Source: Eubacterium sp.
GTDB lineage: Bacteria > Bacillota > Clostridia > Lachnospirales > Lachnospiraceae
Assembly (NCBI GenBank): GCA_017477505.1
Contig: JAFUVQ010000060.1
Location: forward strand, 62,001-126,000
DNA length: 64,000 nucleotides
Direction: 5' to 3'
Positions 22,625 through 27,397 of this stretch are shown one piece after another. A program made the position numbers and the translations under genes. Each line of letters begins with the position of its first letter. Within the stretch, counting starts at the first letter, position 1. The notes under the pieces are model-generated. The model had not been told where the DNA came from, did not search any database, and was given only the letters and a program-made list of their open reading frames with translations.

Positions 22625-23026
22625 ATGATATCAACCAGAGGACGATACGCACTGCGCGTTATGATAGATTTGGCCGAACATGAAGAAGGAGCAAGAATCC
22701 CTCTCAAGGAAATTGCAGAAAGACAGGGTATCTCAAAAAAATACCTGGAGATCATCATGAAGGATATGGTTACCGCTGGCTTTGTAAAAAGTGCAAGCGG
22801 CAAAAACGGCGGATACAGTCTGTCCCGCCGTCCTGAAGAATATACGGTATTTGAAATCCTGGAAACCATGGAGGGAACCCTTTCCCCTGTCGCCTGCCTT
22901 GCCGACTGCAGCTACGAGTGTAACAGGAAAGAAAGCTGCAAGACACTTCCCATGTGGACGGATTTTGATAAGACCATCAGGGATTTCTTCGGCAGCAGGA
23001 CACTGGCGGATTTTACTTTATCATAG
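22625..23026 (+). CDS. Rrf2-family transcriptional regulator with Cys cluster
   Basis: A 133-residue winged-helix repressor. The N-terminus 'ISTRGRYALRVMIDLAEH', helix-turn-helix 'IPLKEIAERQGISKKYLEII' and wing 'GKNGGYSLSRRPEEYTV' are diagnostic. Four Cys at residues 91, 95, 99 and 105 lie where IscR-type members bind a [2Fe-2S] cluster, so it may sense Fe-S status, redox or cysteine. CymR-type regulators of sulfur metabolism belong to this family but often lack these Cys. The cysK and metY genes are 2-4 kb away, which makes them plausible targets. Ribosome binding site GGGAGG. Confidence 0.92.
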   Translation: MISTRGRYALRVMIDLAEHEEGARIPLKEIAERQGISKKYLEIIMKDMVTAGFVKSASGKNGGYSLSRRPEEYTVFEILETMEGTLSPVACLADCSYECNRKESCKTLPMWTDFDKTIRDFFGSRTLADFTLS

Positions 23027-23826: not shown

Positions 23827-24666
23827 ATGGACAAGACTATCATTATCAATAAAACCTTTGATGAGGAGCGGGCACTTTACGGAAGCCGTGATGTGCTTAT
23901 AGAAGCATGCCGTTTTGACGGTCCCGCCGACGGGGAAAGCGCACTTAAGGAAAGCAGTCATATAACAGTTAAGGACAGCCTTTTCAATCTGCGATATCCT
24001 TTCTGGCATGATGACGACCTCATTATAGAAAACTGCGAACTTACTGATAAATGCAGGGCTGCCCTGTGGTACACAAAAAACGCTGTTATCTCCGATTCGA
24101 AGCTTCACGGCATTAAAGCACTACGGGAGTGCTCAGATATTAAAATTATAAACTGTGATATCGATTCTCCTGAATTCGGATGGTCGGTAAACGGCATTGA
24201 GATGCTGGATTCCACTGCACAGGCCGAGTATTTCATGATGCGTTCGGAGAAGCTTTCATTTGCAAATGTAAAAATGAAGGGTAAATATTCCTTCCAGTAC
24301 ATTTCCGATTCAGTTTTTGAGAACTGCCTTTTCGACACGAAGGACGCTTTCTGGCATGCAAAAAATGTAGTTATAAAGAACTGCACCGTCAAAGGCGAAT
24401 ATCTGGCCTGGTATTCAGAAAATATAACCTTTGAAAACTGTACCATATCAGGCACACAGCCTTTTTGTTACTGCAAAGGTCTGCGTCTTATCAATTGCAG
24501 CATGACAGACACAGACCTTGCATTTGAGAAATCAGAAGTTGATGCATATATTACAACTCCTGTGATCAGTATTAAAAATCCTCTTTCCGGAATCATCAGA
24601 GTTCCGGAGGTTTCAGAAATCATAATGGATGATGAAAACGCAAAAGGCGAGATTCTTATCCATTAA
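23827..24666 (+). CDS. DUF3737 family beta-helix protein
   Basis: A 279-residue protein with the regular short strands and Cys/Asn ladders of a right-handed parallel beta-helix: repeated patterns such as '[11 protein letters not shown]', '[10 protein letters not shown]', '[12 protein letters not shown]', '[11 protein letters not shown]' and '[11 protein letters not shown]'. This matches DUF3737. No signal peptide, so cytoplasmic. Function unknown; beta-helix proteins often bind or modify carbohydrate, but no catalytic residues can be named. The stop overlaps the stop of cysK on the other strand by four bases. Confidence 0.85.
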
Positions 24667-25607
24667 TCCTCACTTGTGAAAAGTGGTGTTGAATAGTATC
24701 TGTCACCACTGTCCGGAAGAAGTGCAACTATGGTCTTGCCCTTGTTCTCAGGTCTCTTTGCCAGTTCAATGGCACCATAGAGCGCTGCTCCGGAAGATAT
24801 ACCTACAGATATTCCTTCCTTTCTTGCAAGAAGCTTTGCAGTTTCAAATGCAGCTTCATTCGGTGCCTTGAATACTTCATCAAATACCTCTGTATTAAGT
24901 ACATCAGGCACAAATCCCGCACCTATACCATGAATCTTATGCGCGCCTGCGTGGCCATCCGAAAGTACCGGTGAATCTGCAGGTTCAAGTGCAACTACCC
25001 TGATATCCGGATTCTGTTCCTTAAGGTATTCACCTGTTCCCGTCACTGTTCCGCCGGTTCCCACACCTGCGATGAATATATCTACATTTCCATCCGTGTC
25101 CTTCCAGATTTCAGGACCGGTAGTAGCCTTATGTATAGCCGGATTGGCAGGATTAACGAACTGTCCCGGTATGAAGGCTCCCTCTATCTCCGAAGCCAGC
25201 TCTTCAGCCTTTGCGATCGCACCCTTCATACCCTTTGCGCCTTCTGTAAGAACTATCTCAGCGCCATATGCCTTGAGTATATTTCTACGCTCAACGCTCA
25301 TGGTTTCAGGCATAGTAAGGATAGCACGATAGCCCTTTGCAGCTGCGATGGCAGCAAGTCCGATACCCGTATTACCAGAAGTCGGCTCGATGATAACAGA
25401 ACCCTCTTTGATAAGACCTTTTGCTTCAGCATCCTCGATCATTGCCTTTGCAATACGATCCTTAACACTTCCGGCCGGATTGAAGTACTCAAGCTTTACA
25501 AGAATTGTTGCTTCAAGTCCCAGCTCTTTCTCGATATTAACCACTTCAACAAGTGGAGTATTACCTATAAGTCCCAGTGTGCCTTTATAAATATTAGCCA
25601 TATTCAT
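24663..25607 (-). CDS. cysK: cysteine synthase A (O-acetylserine sulfhydrylase)
   Basis: PLP enzyme making L-cysteine from O-acetylserine and sulfide. Its 314 residues include the PLP lysine in '[11 protein letters not shown]', the substrate loop '[12 protein letters not shown]', the phosphate cup '[12 protein letters not shown]' and '[11 protein letters not shown]'. Length and motifs are normal. It is downstream of metY (140-base gap holding a long palindrome), so the two may share a transcript and the leader control described at 27090-27337, or cysK may have its own promoter in the gap. The ATG at 25607 has AGAAGGGAATGA upstream; a second in-frame ATG is two codons later. Confidence 0.96.
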
Positions 25608-25747: not shown

Positions 25748-27028
25748 TTATATCGCATTAAATGCATTTTCAAGGTCTTCTATGATATCCGCAATGTTTT
25801 CTGTACCGATTGAAAGTCTGATCGTGCTCTGGAAAATGCCCTGATCAGTGAGTTCTTCCTCTGAAAGCTGTGAATGTGTTGTTGATGCCGGATGGATAAC
25901 AAGGCTCTTCACATCCGCTACATTTGCAAGAAGTGAGAATATCTTAAGGTTATCGATAAACTTCCATGCCTCTTCTTTTCCACCCTTGATATCAAATGTG
26001 AATATGGAAGCTCCGCCATTCGGGAAGTACTTCTCATAAAGCGCATGATCCGGATGATCCGGAAGTGATGGATGGTTAACCTTTTCAACAAGCGGATGAT
26101 TGCTGAGGAATTCCACTACCTTCTTTGTGTTCTCAGCATGTCTCTCAAGTCTGAGGGAAAGTGTCTCAACTCCCTGAAGAAGGAGGAACGCATTAAATGG
26201 TGAAATTGTTGCTCCTGTATCACGGAGAAGTATTGCACGGATATATGTTACAAATGCTGCAGGTCCTACAACATCATAGAATGATACGCCATGGTAGCTT
26301 GGATTAGGAGCTGCTATGTTAGGATACTTTCCGCTTGCACTCCAGTCAAACTTTCCTGACTCAACTATGATTCCACCAAGTGTTGTTCCGTGTCCGCCGA
26401 TGAACTTTGTAGCAGAATGTACAACGATATCCGCACCATGCTCTATAGGTCTGATAAGATATGGTGTTCCGAATGTATTGTCGATTACAAGCGGAAGGCC
26501 ATGCTTATGTGCTATCTCAGAAATGGCATCGATATCCGGAATGTCACTGTTAGGATTTCCGAGAGTTTCAAGATAGATGGCTCTTGTATTCTCCTTGATC
26601 GCAGCTTCAACTTCCTCCAGGTTGTGTGCGTCTACAAATGTAGTTTCGATTCCATACTGTGGAAGTGTATGTGCCAGAAGGTTGTAACTTCCGCCATATA
26701 TAGTCTTCTGCGCTACAATGTGTCCGCCGTTAGCTGCGAGTGCTTCGATGGTATATGTGATAGCTGCTGCTCCCGATGCAAGTGCAAGTGCTGCCGAACC
26801 GCCTTCAAGAGCTGCTATTCTCTTCTCAAGAACATCCTGAGTTGAGTTTGTAAGTCTTCCGTAGATATTTCCTGCATCTGCAAGACCGAATCTGTCTGCC
26901 GCATGCTGGCTGTTATGGAATACATATGATGTTGTCTGGTAAATCGGCACTGCTCTTGAATCTGTTGCCGGGTCTGCCTGTTCCTGTCCTACGTGTAACT
27001 GTAATGTTTCAAATCTGTAATCGCTCAT
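25748..27028 (-). CDS. metY: O-acetylhomoserine aminocarboxypropyltransferase (sulfhydrylase)
   Basis: PLP enzyme that makes homocysteine from O-acetylhomoserine and sulfide, the direct-sulfurylation route to methionine. Its 426 residues carry the MetY-type N-terminus 'ETLQLHVGQEQADPATDSRAVP', 'YQTTSYVF', the PLP lysine in 'HSATKFIGGHGTTLGG' and 'SIGTENIADIIEDLE'. The length and long C-terminal domain favour MetY over cystathionine gamma-synthase. The ribosome binding site is AAGGAG nine bases from ATG 27028. Upstream lies a leader-peptide attenuator, so expression should respond to charged tRNA-Cys; a SAM riboswitch was looked for and not found. Confidence 0.94.
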   Translation of the reverse strand: MSDYRFETLQLHVGQEQADPATDSRAVPIYQTTSYVFHNSQHAADRFGLADAGNIYGRLTNSTQDVLEKRIAALEGGSAALALASGAAAITYTIEALAANGGHIVAQKTIYGGSYNLLAHTLPQYGIETTFVDAHNLEEVEAAIKENTRAIYLETLGNPNSDIPDIDAISEIAHKHGLPLVIDNTFGTPYLIRPIEHGADIVVHSATKFIGGHGTTLGGIIVESGKFDWSASGKYPNIAAPNPSYHGVSFYDVVGPAAFVTYIRAILLRDTGATISPFNAFLLLQGVETLSLRLERHAENTKKVVEFLSNHPLVEKVNHPSLPDHPDHALYEKYFPNGGASIFTFDIKGGKEEAWKFIDNLKIFSLLANVADVKSLVIHPASTTHSQLSEEELTDQGIFQSTIRLSIGTENIADIIEDLENAFNAI

Positions 27029-27089: not shown

Positions 27090-27119
27090 AAAAAAACGGG
27101 ACCTCATATGGGGCTCCCG
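27090..27119 (-). terminator. intrinsic terminator of the metY leader
   Basis: Minus strand: CGGGAGCC...GGTCCCG stem (one bulged G; 27097-27119) followed by seven T (27090-27096). It lies 62 bases upstream of the metY ATG, so it would stop transcription before the gene. Its 5' half is shared with the antiterminator pairing at 27114-27123. Confidence 0.85.
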
Positions 27120-27206
27120 GGCAAATGGCTTATGCATCAACATCGCATTGTTTCGAGGCGGTAAGGTACACAACCTGACGCCCCAGCCACAGGGTATGCC
27201 CGGGAG
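27114..27206 (-). promoter_or_regulatory. antiterminator pairing of the metY attenuator
   Basis: CTCCCGGGCA (minus strand, 27197-27206, inside leader codons 20-23) is perfectly complementary to TGCCCGGGAG (27114-27123), which contains the 5' side of the terminator stem. A smaller hairpin between the arms (GGGGCG...CGCCTC with inner AGGT/ACCT, about 27155-27184) would bring them together. A ribosome stalled on the Cys codons leaves the first arm free and favours antitermination. A ribosome that moves on covers it and favours the terminator. Confidence 0.75.
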
Positions 27207-27265
27207 ATCTGCATTCGACAGCAGCACATCAGATATGAAGTTGTAAATGATGTAGAATTTGTCAT
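27137..27265 (-). CDS. cysteine-rich leader peptide of metY (42 aa)
   Basis: Unannotated 42-codon ORF with ATG at 27265, AGGAGG at 27275-27280 (nine-base spacing) and a TGA stop at 27137-27139. Residues 14-16 are three consecutive Cys (TGC TGC TGT) followed by Arg; two more Cys are at 32 and 42. It starts about 27 bases after the predicted transcription start and ends 18 bases before the terminator stem. This layout is that of a translated attenuator leader such as trpL or hisL, with cysteine as the sensed amino acid. It is probably cis-acting only, with no function for the peptide itself. A longer reading frame on the same strand (27084-27311) is in another phase and lacks a ribosome binding site. 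Confidence 0.8.
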   Translation of the reverse strand: MTNSTSFTTSYLMCCCRMQISRAYPVAGASGCVPYRLETMRC

Positions 27266-27298
27266 AACCTTTTTCCTCCTCTTCATTATCATGTGTGC

Positions 27299-27327
27299 AT
27301 ATTATCACCAATAACCTACCTAGTCAA
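27299..27327 (-). promoter_or_regulatory. promoter of the metY leader
   Basis: Minus strand TTGACT (27322-27327), 17-base spacer, TAATAT (27299-27304). The predicted start near 27292 gives a short 5' end before the leader ribosome binding site. Confidence 0.8.
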
Positions 27328-27337
27328 TAGGTTATTG
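27309..27337 (-). promoter_or_regulatory. inverted-repeat operator over the metY -35 region
   Basis: Perfect 10-bp arms CAATAACCTA and TAGGTTATTG separated by nine bases. They cover the -35 hexamer and most of the spacer, so a bound protein would block RNA polymerase. The site is a likely repressor operator; the nearby Rrf2 regulator (22625) is a candidate because its own promoter contains the shared ACTAGGTA. Confidence 0.65.
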
Positions 27338-27353
27338 CCTTATAGCCCATACA

Positions 27354-27397
27354 TAAAAATTATCGCTCGCTATAGAGATTATCTATAACGAGCGATA
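27354..27397 (-). terminator. terminator of feoAB
   Basis: Stem TATCGCTCG / CGAGCGATA (27361-27397) with an inner TATAGA/TCTATA helix. On the minus strand it is followed by ATTTTTATG. It lies 50 bases after the feoAB stop and directly before the metY promoter region. Confidence 0.75.

Follow-up and report, generated by a model that had tools for sequence, protein, structure and literature searches.

A conserved cysteine-codon leader upstream of metY in a Eubacterium species of the Lachnospiraceae, with the anatomy of a ribosome-mediated attenuator

S-box and T-box leaders exert terminator/antiterminator control over sulfur genes in clostridia. In the Eubacterium sp. analyzed here, metY is preceded by a leader of another kind, a short open reading frame (ORF) with three successive Cys codons, and the question is whether this leader adjusts metY transcription to cysteine supply through its own translation. 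Terminator/antiterminator control of sulfur genes would be common to both kinds, but the window (i.e., the whole 64,000-nucleotide stretch of DNA that was analyzed) has no S-box or T-box match; no Rfam family reached its gathering score in the window, and none overlapped the element at E values of up to 5 in five loci. The sole S-box match in this genome precedes a metK-like gene (read by eye), and five T-box matches, two of them over the cutoff, lie elsewhere in the genome. A preliminary description made from the sequence had proposed that a cysteine attenuator stands here in place of an S-box, which fits these results, and its attenuator interpretation is largely supported by the analysis below. 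We put at roughly 0.86 the probability that the element attenuates transcription through a translating ribosome and in this way responds to cysteine supply, charged tRNA-Cys being the most likely signal. Its parts are as follows.

27314..27332, minus strand: dyad ACCTATTGACTAGGTAGGT (ACCTA-N9-TAGGT) over the -35 box, operator-like
27299..27327, minus strand: promoter match, TTGACT (27327-27322), 17-nt spacer and TAATAT (27304-27299), with TG before the -10; a consensus match only
27275..27280, minus strand: leader Shine-Dalgarno (SD) sequence AGGAGG, read from the sequence
27261..27281, minus strand: 5' strand of helix P1 (SD and start region), predicted fold
27137..27265, minus strand: leader ORF, ATG at 27265, 42 codons, MTNSTSFTTSYLMCCCRMQISRAYPVAGASGCVPYRLETMRC, stop at 27139-27137
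27218..27226, minus strand: Cys cluster I, codons 14-16
27212..27217, minus strand: CGAATG (Arg-Met) directly after Cys cluster I, near-invariant in relatives
27197..27206, minus strand: arm B, the antiterminator 5' strand, CTCCCGGGCA, inside the leader ORF
27177..27209, minus strand: predicted protector hairpin P2 in its window form, B paired with the segment just 3' of it
27185..27190, minus strand: inner antiterminator helix, 5' strand GTGGCT
27170-27172, minus strand: late Cys codon 32
27155..27171, minus strand: 3' strand of P1, late in the leader ORF, GTGTACCTTACCGCCTC, predicted fold
27140..27142, minus strand: late Cys codon 42, the last before the stop
27125..27130, minus strand: inner antiterminator helix, 3' strand AGCCAT
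27114..27123, minus strand: arm E, exact complement of B, antiterminator 3' strand and terminator 5' side, TGCCCGGGAG, beyond the ORF stop
27090..27119, minus strand: intrinsic terminator, bulged stem from 27119, U-tract of seven T at 27096-27090
25748..27028, minus strand: metY (ATG at 27028), O-acetylhomoserine sulfhydrylase family, OAH_OAS_sulfhy model above its cutoff
24663..25607, minus strand: cysK, the next gene after metY, on the same strand

The AGGAGG-led 42-codon ORF with Cys at codons 14-16 and the 10-nt perfect complement (27197-27206 with 27114-27123), both named in the preliminary description, are present in the sequence. That description had also listed a consensus promoter and an intrinsic terminator. 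The hexamers TTGACT and TAATAT do stand 17 nt apart, but a score of 9/12 is not above what shuffles give (1 match in the sequence versus a shuffle mean of 2.0); the terminator is there with its seven T residues, but its stem is imperfect and has no entry in a simple scan. The SD-sequestering helix P1, the hairpin around B, and the late Cys codons are additions to the earlier account. An alternative in-frame ATG at 27292, which would give 51 codons, was rejected, the AGGAGG-led ATG at 27265 being the better start.

Could these parts have met by chance? A perfect complement of at least 10 nt, with arms at least 40 nt apart, arose within the leader in 6 of 500 dinucleotide shuffles, and the B/E core is a palindrome. 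Among the 65 SD-led ORFs of 20 to 60 codons in the window, only the leader ORF itself encodes CCC. The chance evidence from the window alone is moderate; a chance origin is ruled out because the element is conserved in relatives.

Relatives were sought by DNA similarity, covariance models, and pattern. The DNA similarity search gave matches in 18 of 61 genomes, several only at the promoter or elsewhere, and yielded homologous leaders in the same genus as well as a second leader copy in the same genome (L019). One carrier of the same genus, Lachnospiraceae bacterium AC2029 (L136), appears to be an isolate. Covariance model R1, built from 12 leaders, had matches in 39 of 397 family genomes and 13 of 391 class genomes. 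Model R2, built from 62 diverse sequences (of 65 selected), had matches in 47 of 397 family genomes, spanning 42 of the 334 genera sampled in the family, and in 5 of 398 phylum genomes; all of these counts include this genome. Matches to R1 and R2 outnumber loci, and counts by locus refer to the loci examined. A pattern scan of titled genomes gave at least 117 stretches. Most of the 80 titles listed belong to Lachnospiraceae or to other Clostridia, with rumen or gut as a frequent sample source, and two are Anaerovibrio, a Negativicutes genus, in which both leaders stand before metY-type genes. A few matches in unrelated taxa, having no arm E or no fitting gene, were set aside as chance. Thirteen of 163 unique matches failed the arm-E filter (cut off, N-containing, or chance), leaving 150, which still contain the chance matches L081, L099, and L126; these three are outside the 147 matches used for reading frames. 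For the comparative set, ten chance or off-target loci were removed and a start, 20 to 60 residues, and no N were required. The resulting 150 rows were reduced to 134 by dropping short ones and those with at least 80% anchored identity; 132 have arm E. The pattern set overlaps with the 46 leaders found by model or DNA similarity in seven cases.

The leader ORF appears translatable by every sign in its sequence. An SD sequence with an ATG 10 to 22 codons upstream, open to the anchor CGA, was found in the Cys frame for 133 of 147 matches and in the other frames for 4 and 2; the median length of the leader peptide was 39. Within the 46 leaders from model or DNA similarity, Cys accounts for 106 of 230 codons at positions -5 to -1, whereas the N part has 3 Cys among 464 codons and the late ORF 74 among 399. 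At least one Cys lies at -5 to -1 in all 46 of them, a figure to be read with the origin of model R1, itself built from Cys-bearing leaders, and in 131 of 132 in the whole set. Comparison thus establishes the placement of the Cys codons as well as their frame. Late Cys codons occur in 38 of the 46, and 107 of 132 leaders have Cys at or beyond +15. The Cys triplet that had been taken as the core is in the window, but the usual core in relatives is Met-Cys-Cys-Arg-Met. Alternating MCMCMCRM leaders were also found, and some divergent leaders have a single Cys before CGA (RCGRM, L237 and L238).

CGAATG was present in all 45 R1-found loci examined (43 in one listing, and L176 and L183 in another) and, on a by-eye reading, in 15 of 20 mostly weaker R2 matches; a 5-nt spacer separates it from B in 43 of the 45. 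In the pattern set its invariance is by construction, as the pattern itself prescribed CGAATG, a narrowly defined arm B, and 5 nt between the two. The hexamer is complementary to a segment at +34 to +56 in about half of the relatives, and the CGTTCG-like partner common among them was not found in the window. Its conservation is stronger than any of the pairings found would account for: the P2 partner varies, so P2 would not demand invariance. A slow CGA codon is one idea that might account for it. Pairing of CGAATG with CATTTG beside arm E was considered and rejected, as it fails where that sequence is CATATG (judged by eye).

The antiterminator, consisting of the outer helix B:E and an inner helix ATGGC:GCCAT, has 93.2% of its cells paired in 62 sequences, a value that 0 of 500 shuffles equaled, and shows compensatory change at 9 of 15 pairs, again reached by 0 of 500 shuffles. 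Folded to a consensus without constraints, these 62 sequences yielded only the outer helix. Across 132 leaders, GC occupies pair 6 in 120 and pair 8 in 114, and AU occupies them in 12 and 11, respectively; arm E was located through its match to B, which favors the outer helix in the covariation and pair counts. When B was allowed to choose freely in a fixed downstream window, its own windows beat permuted or foreign ones (z = -14.1). For the terminator, TTTT follows E at 8 to 52 nt in 136 of 144 matches, and the own-versus-foreign comparison of E:F gave a z of -5.0 (127 sequences). On these comparisons, the B:E helices and the terminator are both features of the leader family. The preliminary description had looked to relatives for conservation, and it was found there: at least one Cys codon at -5 to -1 in each of 46 leaders, two covarying antiterminator helices, and mostly cognate genes downstream. 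The fold energy of the whole leader is not unusual (z = -1.52).

The bearing of a ribosome on this switch was modeled by blocking a footprint codon by codon (-15 to +12 from the A site) and folding the remaining RNA. In the window, the predicted antiterminator probability was 1.00 with codons 14-16 in the A site and 0.46 at codon 18. From codon 19 to codon 27 it was 0.00, with a terminator probability of 0.62 to 0.65 over that stretch, and the antiterminator returned from codon 29. The predicted fold therefore flips from antiterminator to terminator within three codons past the last Cys codon. That a ribosome on B blocks B is trivial; that the Cys codons end where the predicted coverage of B begins is not. 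In 139 of 145 homologues used for this folding, the mean antiterminator probability fell from 0.73 at the codon preceding CGA to 0.48 at CGA itself and to 0.00 two codons further on, although the terminator was still favored in 32 of 139 with the stall one codon before CGA. With the ribosome at a late Cys codon or at the stop codon the predicted fold was undecided, the mean for the antiterminator being 0.51, against 0.44, in the first case and 0.49 in the second. We also computed the cost of freeing E in 130 leaders. Its median was 13.4 kcal/mol with the ribosome stalled on the last Cys codon; it dropped to 3.1 two codons past CGA and was still 9.7 at the stop. The stall at Cys cluster I strengthened the hold on E in 113 of 130 leaders when compared with the ribosome-free RNA, and in 114 of 130 when compared with a ribosome at the stop. 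In ribosome-free RNA the antiterminator had a mean probability of 0.61, exceeding 0.5 in 86 of 139 homologues, and the window likewise preferred the antiterminator at equilibrium. Since equilibrium favors the antiterminator in the absence of a ribosome, the OFF state would need kinetics, either P2 re-forming behind the ribosome or the timing of RNA polymerase.

Two further helices may take part in the switch. Helix P1 pairs the leader SD and start region with a late-ORF segment and has a predicted duplex energy of -14.9 kcal/mol in the window. Against permutation it scored a z of -10.6, with SD controls at 0.5 and -0.7 and upstream coding sequence paired with the P1 3' segment at -3.2. In narrower segments the z was -7.5, but the intended control (+80 to +104 with the P1 3' segment) came out at -7.3 and a second one at -2.9. 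Because base composition or relatedness inflates permutation z scores, shuffles were added: P1 was 3.20 kcal stronger than its shuffles (-3.20 kcal), and the own pairing ranked among the top 10% of its shuffles for 65 of 134 leaders, compared with 0.08 to -1.03 kcal and 12 to 31 of 134 for the controls. The predicted effect on the SD is modest: its mean unpaired probability is 0.57 before the P1 strand is made and 0.36 afterwards (123 leaders), while a ribosome at Cys cluster I gives 0.39 (123 leaders) and a ribosome at a late Cys codon gives 0.48 (70 leaders).

In the window, helix P2 is predicted as a hairpin between B and the stretch directly following; in many relatives it is built otherwise, TGTCGAATG pairing with a segment after B and so enclosing B. 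Runs of at least 7 P2 pairs occur in 67 of 134 leaders versus 14.5% of shuffles, with control segments at 17, 7, and 9 of 134; P2 is stronger than shuffles by -3.81 kcal and inner P2 by -2.14 kcal. Covariation across 127 sequences was not found for outer P2 (z = -1.4), one side of which hardly varies. P1 pairing is thus supported by sequence comparison, and P2 by the shuffles only. A further hairpin, P3 (GGGGCG with CGCCTC), had an own-foreign z of -7.3, but its -1.33 kcal against shuffles is close to the -1.03 that controls reach, and it is not claimed.

From this anatomy we infer ribosome stalling, sensing of tRNA, a kinetic decision, and roles for P1, P2, and the late Cys codons. Under a shortage of Cys-tRNA, a ribosome would stall on the Cys codons with the next 11 nt beneath it and B, just beyond, free. 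The stalled ribosome would break P2, B would pair with E, the terminator would be blocked, and metY would be transcribed. When Cys-tRNA is ample, the ribosome would run over B, and P2 would re-form behind it and keep B occupied; E could then pair with the terminator strand, and transcription would stop. P1 would afterwards hide the leader SD and so limit the decision to early ribosomes, and late Cys codons would hold P1 open under shortage. An extended version, in which the first ribosome or ribosomes decide, P1 locks translation by hiding the SD, and the late Cys codons re-open it under shortage, would give two successive readings of Cys (possibly also of Met) in one RNA across a broad Bacillota family reaching Anaerovibrio; we regard it as possible, with the odds against it, the undecided fold at the late Cys codons lowering them slightly.

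The same ribosome switch might read sulfur amino acids generally, the Met and Cys codons around CGAATG both acting as control codons. Met is indeed enriched at -5 to -1 (162 of 657 codons versus 31 of 1,178 in the N part), the MCMCMCRM leaders alternate the two residues, and one main target type joins a cystine-type substrate-binding protein (SBP) with a MetQ/NlpA domain (in the representative tested). Cys nevertheless dominates, at -1 in 125 of 132 leaders and at -2 in 101 of 132, although the pattern behind many of these rows prescribes a Cys at -1; Trp is raised as well (27 of 657 versus 8 of 1,178), so that an enriched codon need not be a control codon; and Met shortage would lower initiation too. 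We judge this wider reading rather unlikely. Much further down in probability is a small-molecule riboswitch or protein-binding RNA in which the ORF is incidental. It would suit the long, highly conserved RNA segments and a near-invariant CGAATG beyond pairing, and it is at odds with the frame-specific start and SD, the in-frame Cys clusters at two places, and the element's lack of an Rfam match; we find it very improbable.

Another reading makes the peptide itself the agent, a small Cys-rich protein that is conserved and acts in trans while the hairpins are secondary; it would explain why MCCRM..SRA..MAG is recognizable across families. The SRA and MAG segments, however, sit on strands that pair and covary with E, the change of pair 6 from GC to AU (12 of 132) is also the change from Arg to Gln in the peptide (12 of 132), and variation in the N part is free. 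Synonymous variation in SRA is scarce but was left uncounted, as the search expression allowed little. Such a protein is hardly credible. Slimmer still are the chances that the promoter dyad and an Rrf2-type repressor are the sole control and the leader is a relic. The dyad, as CCTA[AT]TGAC..TAGG, occurs in 89 of 130 leaders, an Rrf2 gene lies in the window, and a metY of the same genus (L003) has the promoter without the leader, but the frame, codons, and helices of the leader are conserved across families.

How does such an attenuator compare with known systems? The trp and his attenuators of Proteobacteria combine a control-codon leader peptide, a competing antiterminator and terminator, and a hairpin that protects the antiterminator strand, and older work described long-range pairing that lowers trpL translation. 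The present element resembles them in its leader peptide with control codons, in its antiterminator opposed to an intrinsic terminator, and perhaps in a protecting hairpin, for which P2 is the candidate. It differs in its amino acid (cysteine), its setting in Bacillota with conservation across families, its SD-sequestering helix and late Cys codons, and the position of B inside the leader ORF, with 19 further codons after B in the window. Polycysteine leaderless short ORFs have been reported from mycobacteria (Canestrari 2020, cited in PMC13236596); they share a Cys-rich leader peptide before sulfur genes, but they are leaderless by the title of that work and the ORF here is SD-led. The cys leaders of Actinobacteria share the same feature and, as far as PMC1262725 was available, have Cys runs near the stop with no conserved terminator hairpin found, in contrast to the Cys cluster before an antiterminator strand and the intrinsic terminator seen here. 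The element uORFC-8-2, upstream of cysS in Rhodobacterales, is likewise a short ORF with tandem Cys codons (usually codons 14 and 15) and a terminator, for which cysteine attenuation was proposed (PMC8632094); it has a two-stem consensus of its own. The available part of that paper describes it only before cysS in Alphaproteobacteria, and it is by description only that it is set apart from the present element; cysS was not among the downstream types seen here. Leader-peptide control does exist in Bacillota for other amino acids and genes, as the available parts of the reports on a his leader before hisS/hisZ in bacilli (PMC2965389) and on ilv leaders in S. aureus and Listeria (PMC5794164, PMC5864092) indicate. 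No description of this cysteine leader was found among the literature matches listed, subscription papers and preprints being mostly or wholly beyond reach. The best reading of the element is thus, by its anatomy, a conserved ribosome-mediated attenuator of a form not previously described in the literature searched. In Bacillota, leaders are usually T-boxes or riboswitches, and few members are reported to use leader-peptide attenuation. This element provides a model in which sensing may occur at two points and the ribosome site would close itself.

The element is a conserved, testable and probable cysteine sensor that stands mostly before genes for homocysteine synthesis and cystine/methionine-type uptake. 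Among the 150 unique matches with arm E, 78 precede metY-type genes and 47 precede SBP genes, and all 125 of these genes start within 380 nt of CGA; comparison across matches thereby identifies the main targets. Other types are ABC permeases or ATPases (7), cysK (2), and glutamate-cysteine ligase (1). Five more (two glutathione S-transferase-type genes and one each of M20 peptidase, PFL-like, and LanC-like) have no demonstrable link to cysteine, and the rest comprise three chance matches, six at contig ends, and one unclear case (L124). The downstream gene was taken as the longest ORF starting within 900 nt of CGA, so 6 of the 140 typed genes, which start 636 to 894 nt away, may not be the first gene. 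Pfam typing covered one representative per type, apart from the second ATPase/permease members and the more distant cysK copy. The SBP representative (L163) carries a cystine-type SBP_bac_3 domain and a MetQ/NlpA domain in one protein (Pfam, NCBIfam), and the gene behind the second leader copy in this genome (L019) belongs to the SBP cluster. Dual cystine/methionine uptake is a possible function of the fusion protein, for L019 by its place in that cluster. These targets bear on the sulfur amino acid economy of the gut, many carriers being named from rumen and gut samples. Leaders also stand before a LanC-like gene (L171) and, judged by eye, before glutathionyl-reductase-like and LysR-type genes (L240, L242, and L250), from which the regulon may be wider than biosynthesis and uptake. 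The PFL-like glycyl radical enzyme behind another leader (L053) is perhaps sulfonate-using.

The promoter dyad may serve as operator for a regulator of the cysteine or iron-sulfur type. In its own genome, CCTATTGACNNNNTAGGT occurs exactly only at the two leaders, with one-mismatch copies at two further places; one (L200) precedes a glutamate-cysteine ligase-like gene (by eye), and the other (L199) appears to lie within coding sequence. A candidate for the regulator of the dyad is the Rrf2-family gene at 22625-23026, near metY and cysK, which scored below the cutoffs of the IscR and CymR models. At another locus (L012), an Rrf2-like gene adjoins the leader (by eye). The same-genus metY at L003, which by eye has the promoter dyad and no attenuator, represents a natural loss or absence. 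Between the preceding feoB-like gene and the leader promoter, a strong hairpin with a T tail at 27361-27397 is terminator-like in the scan.
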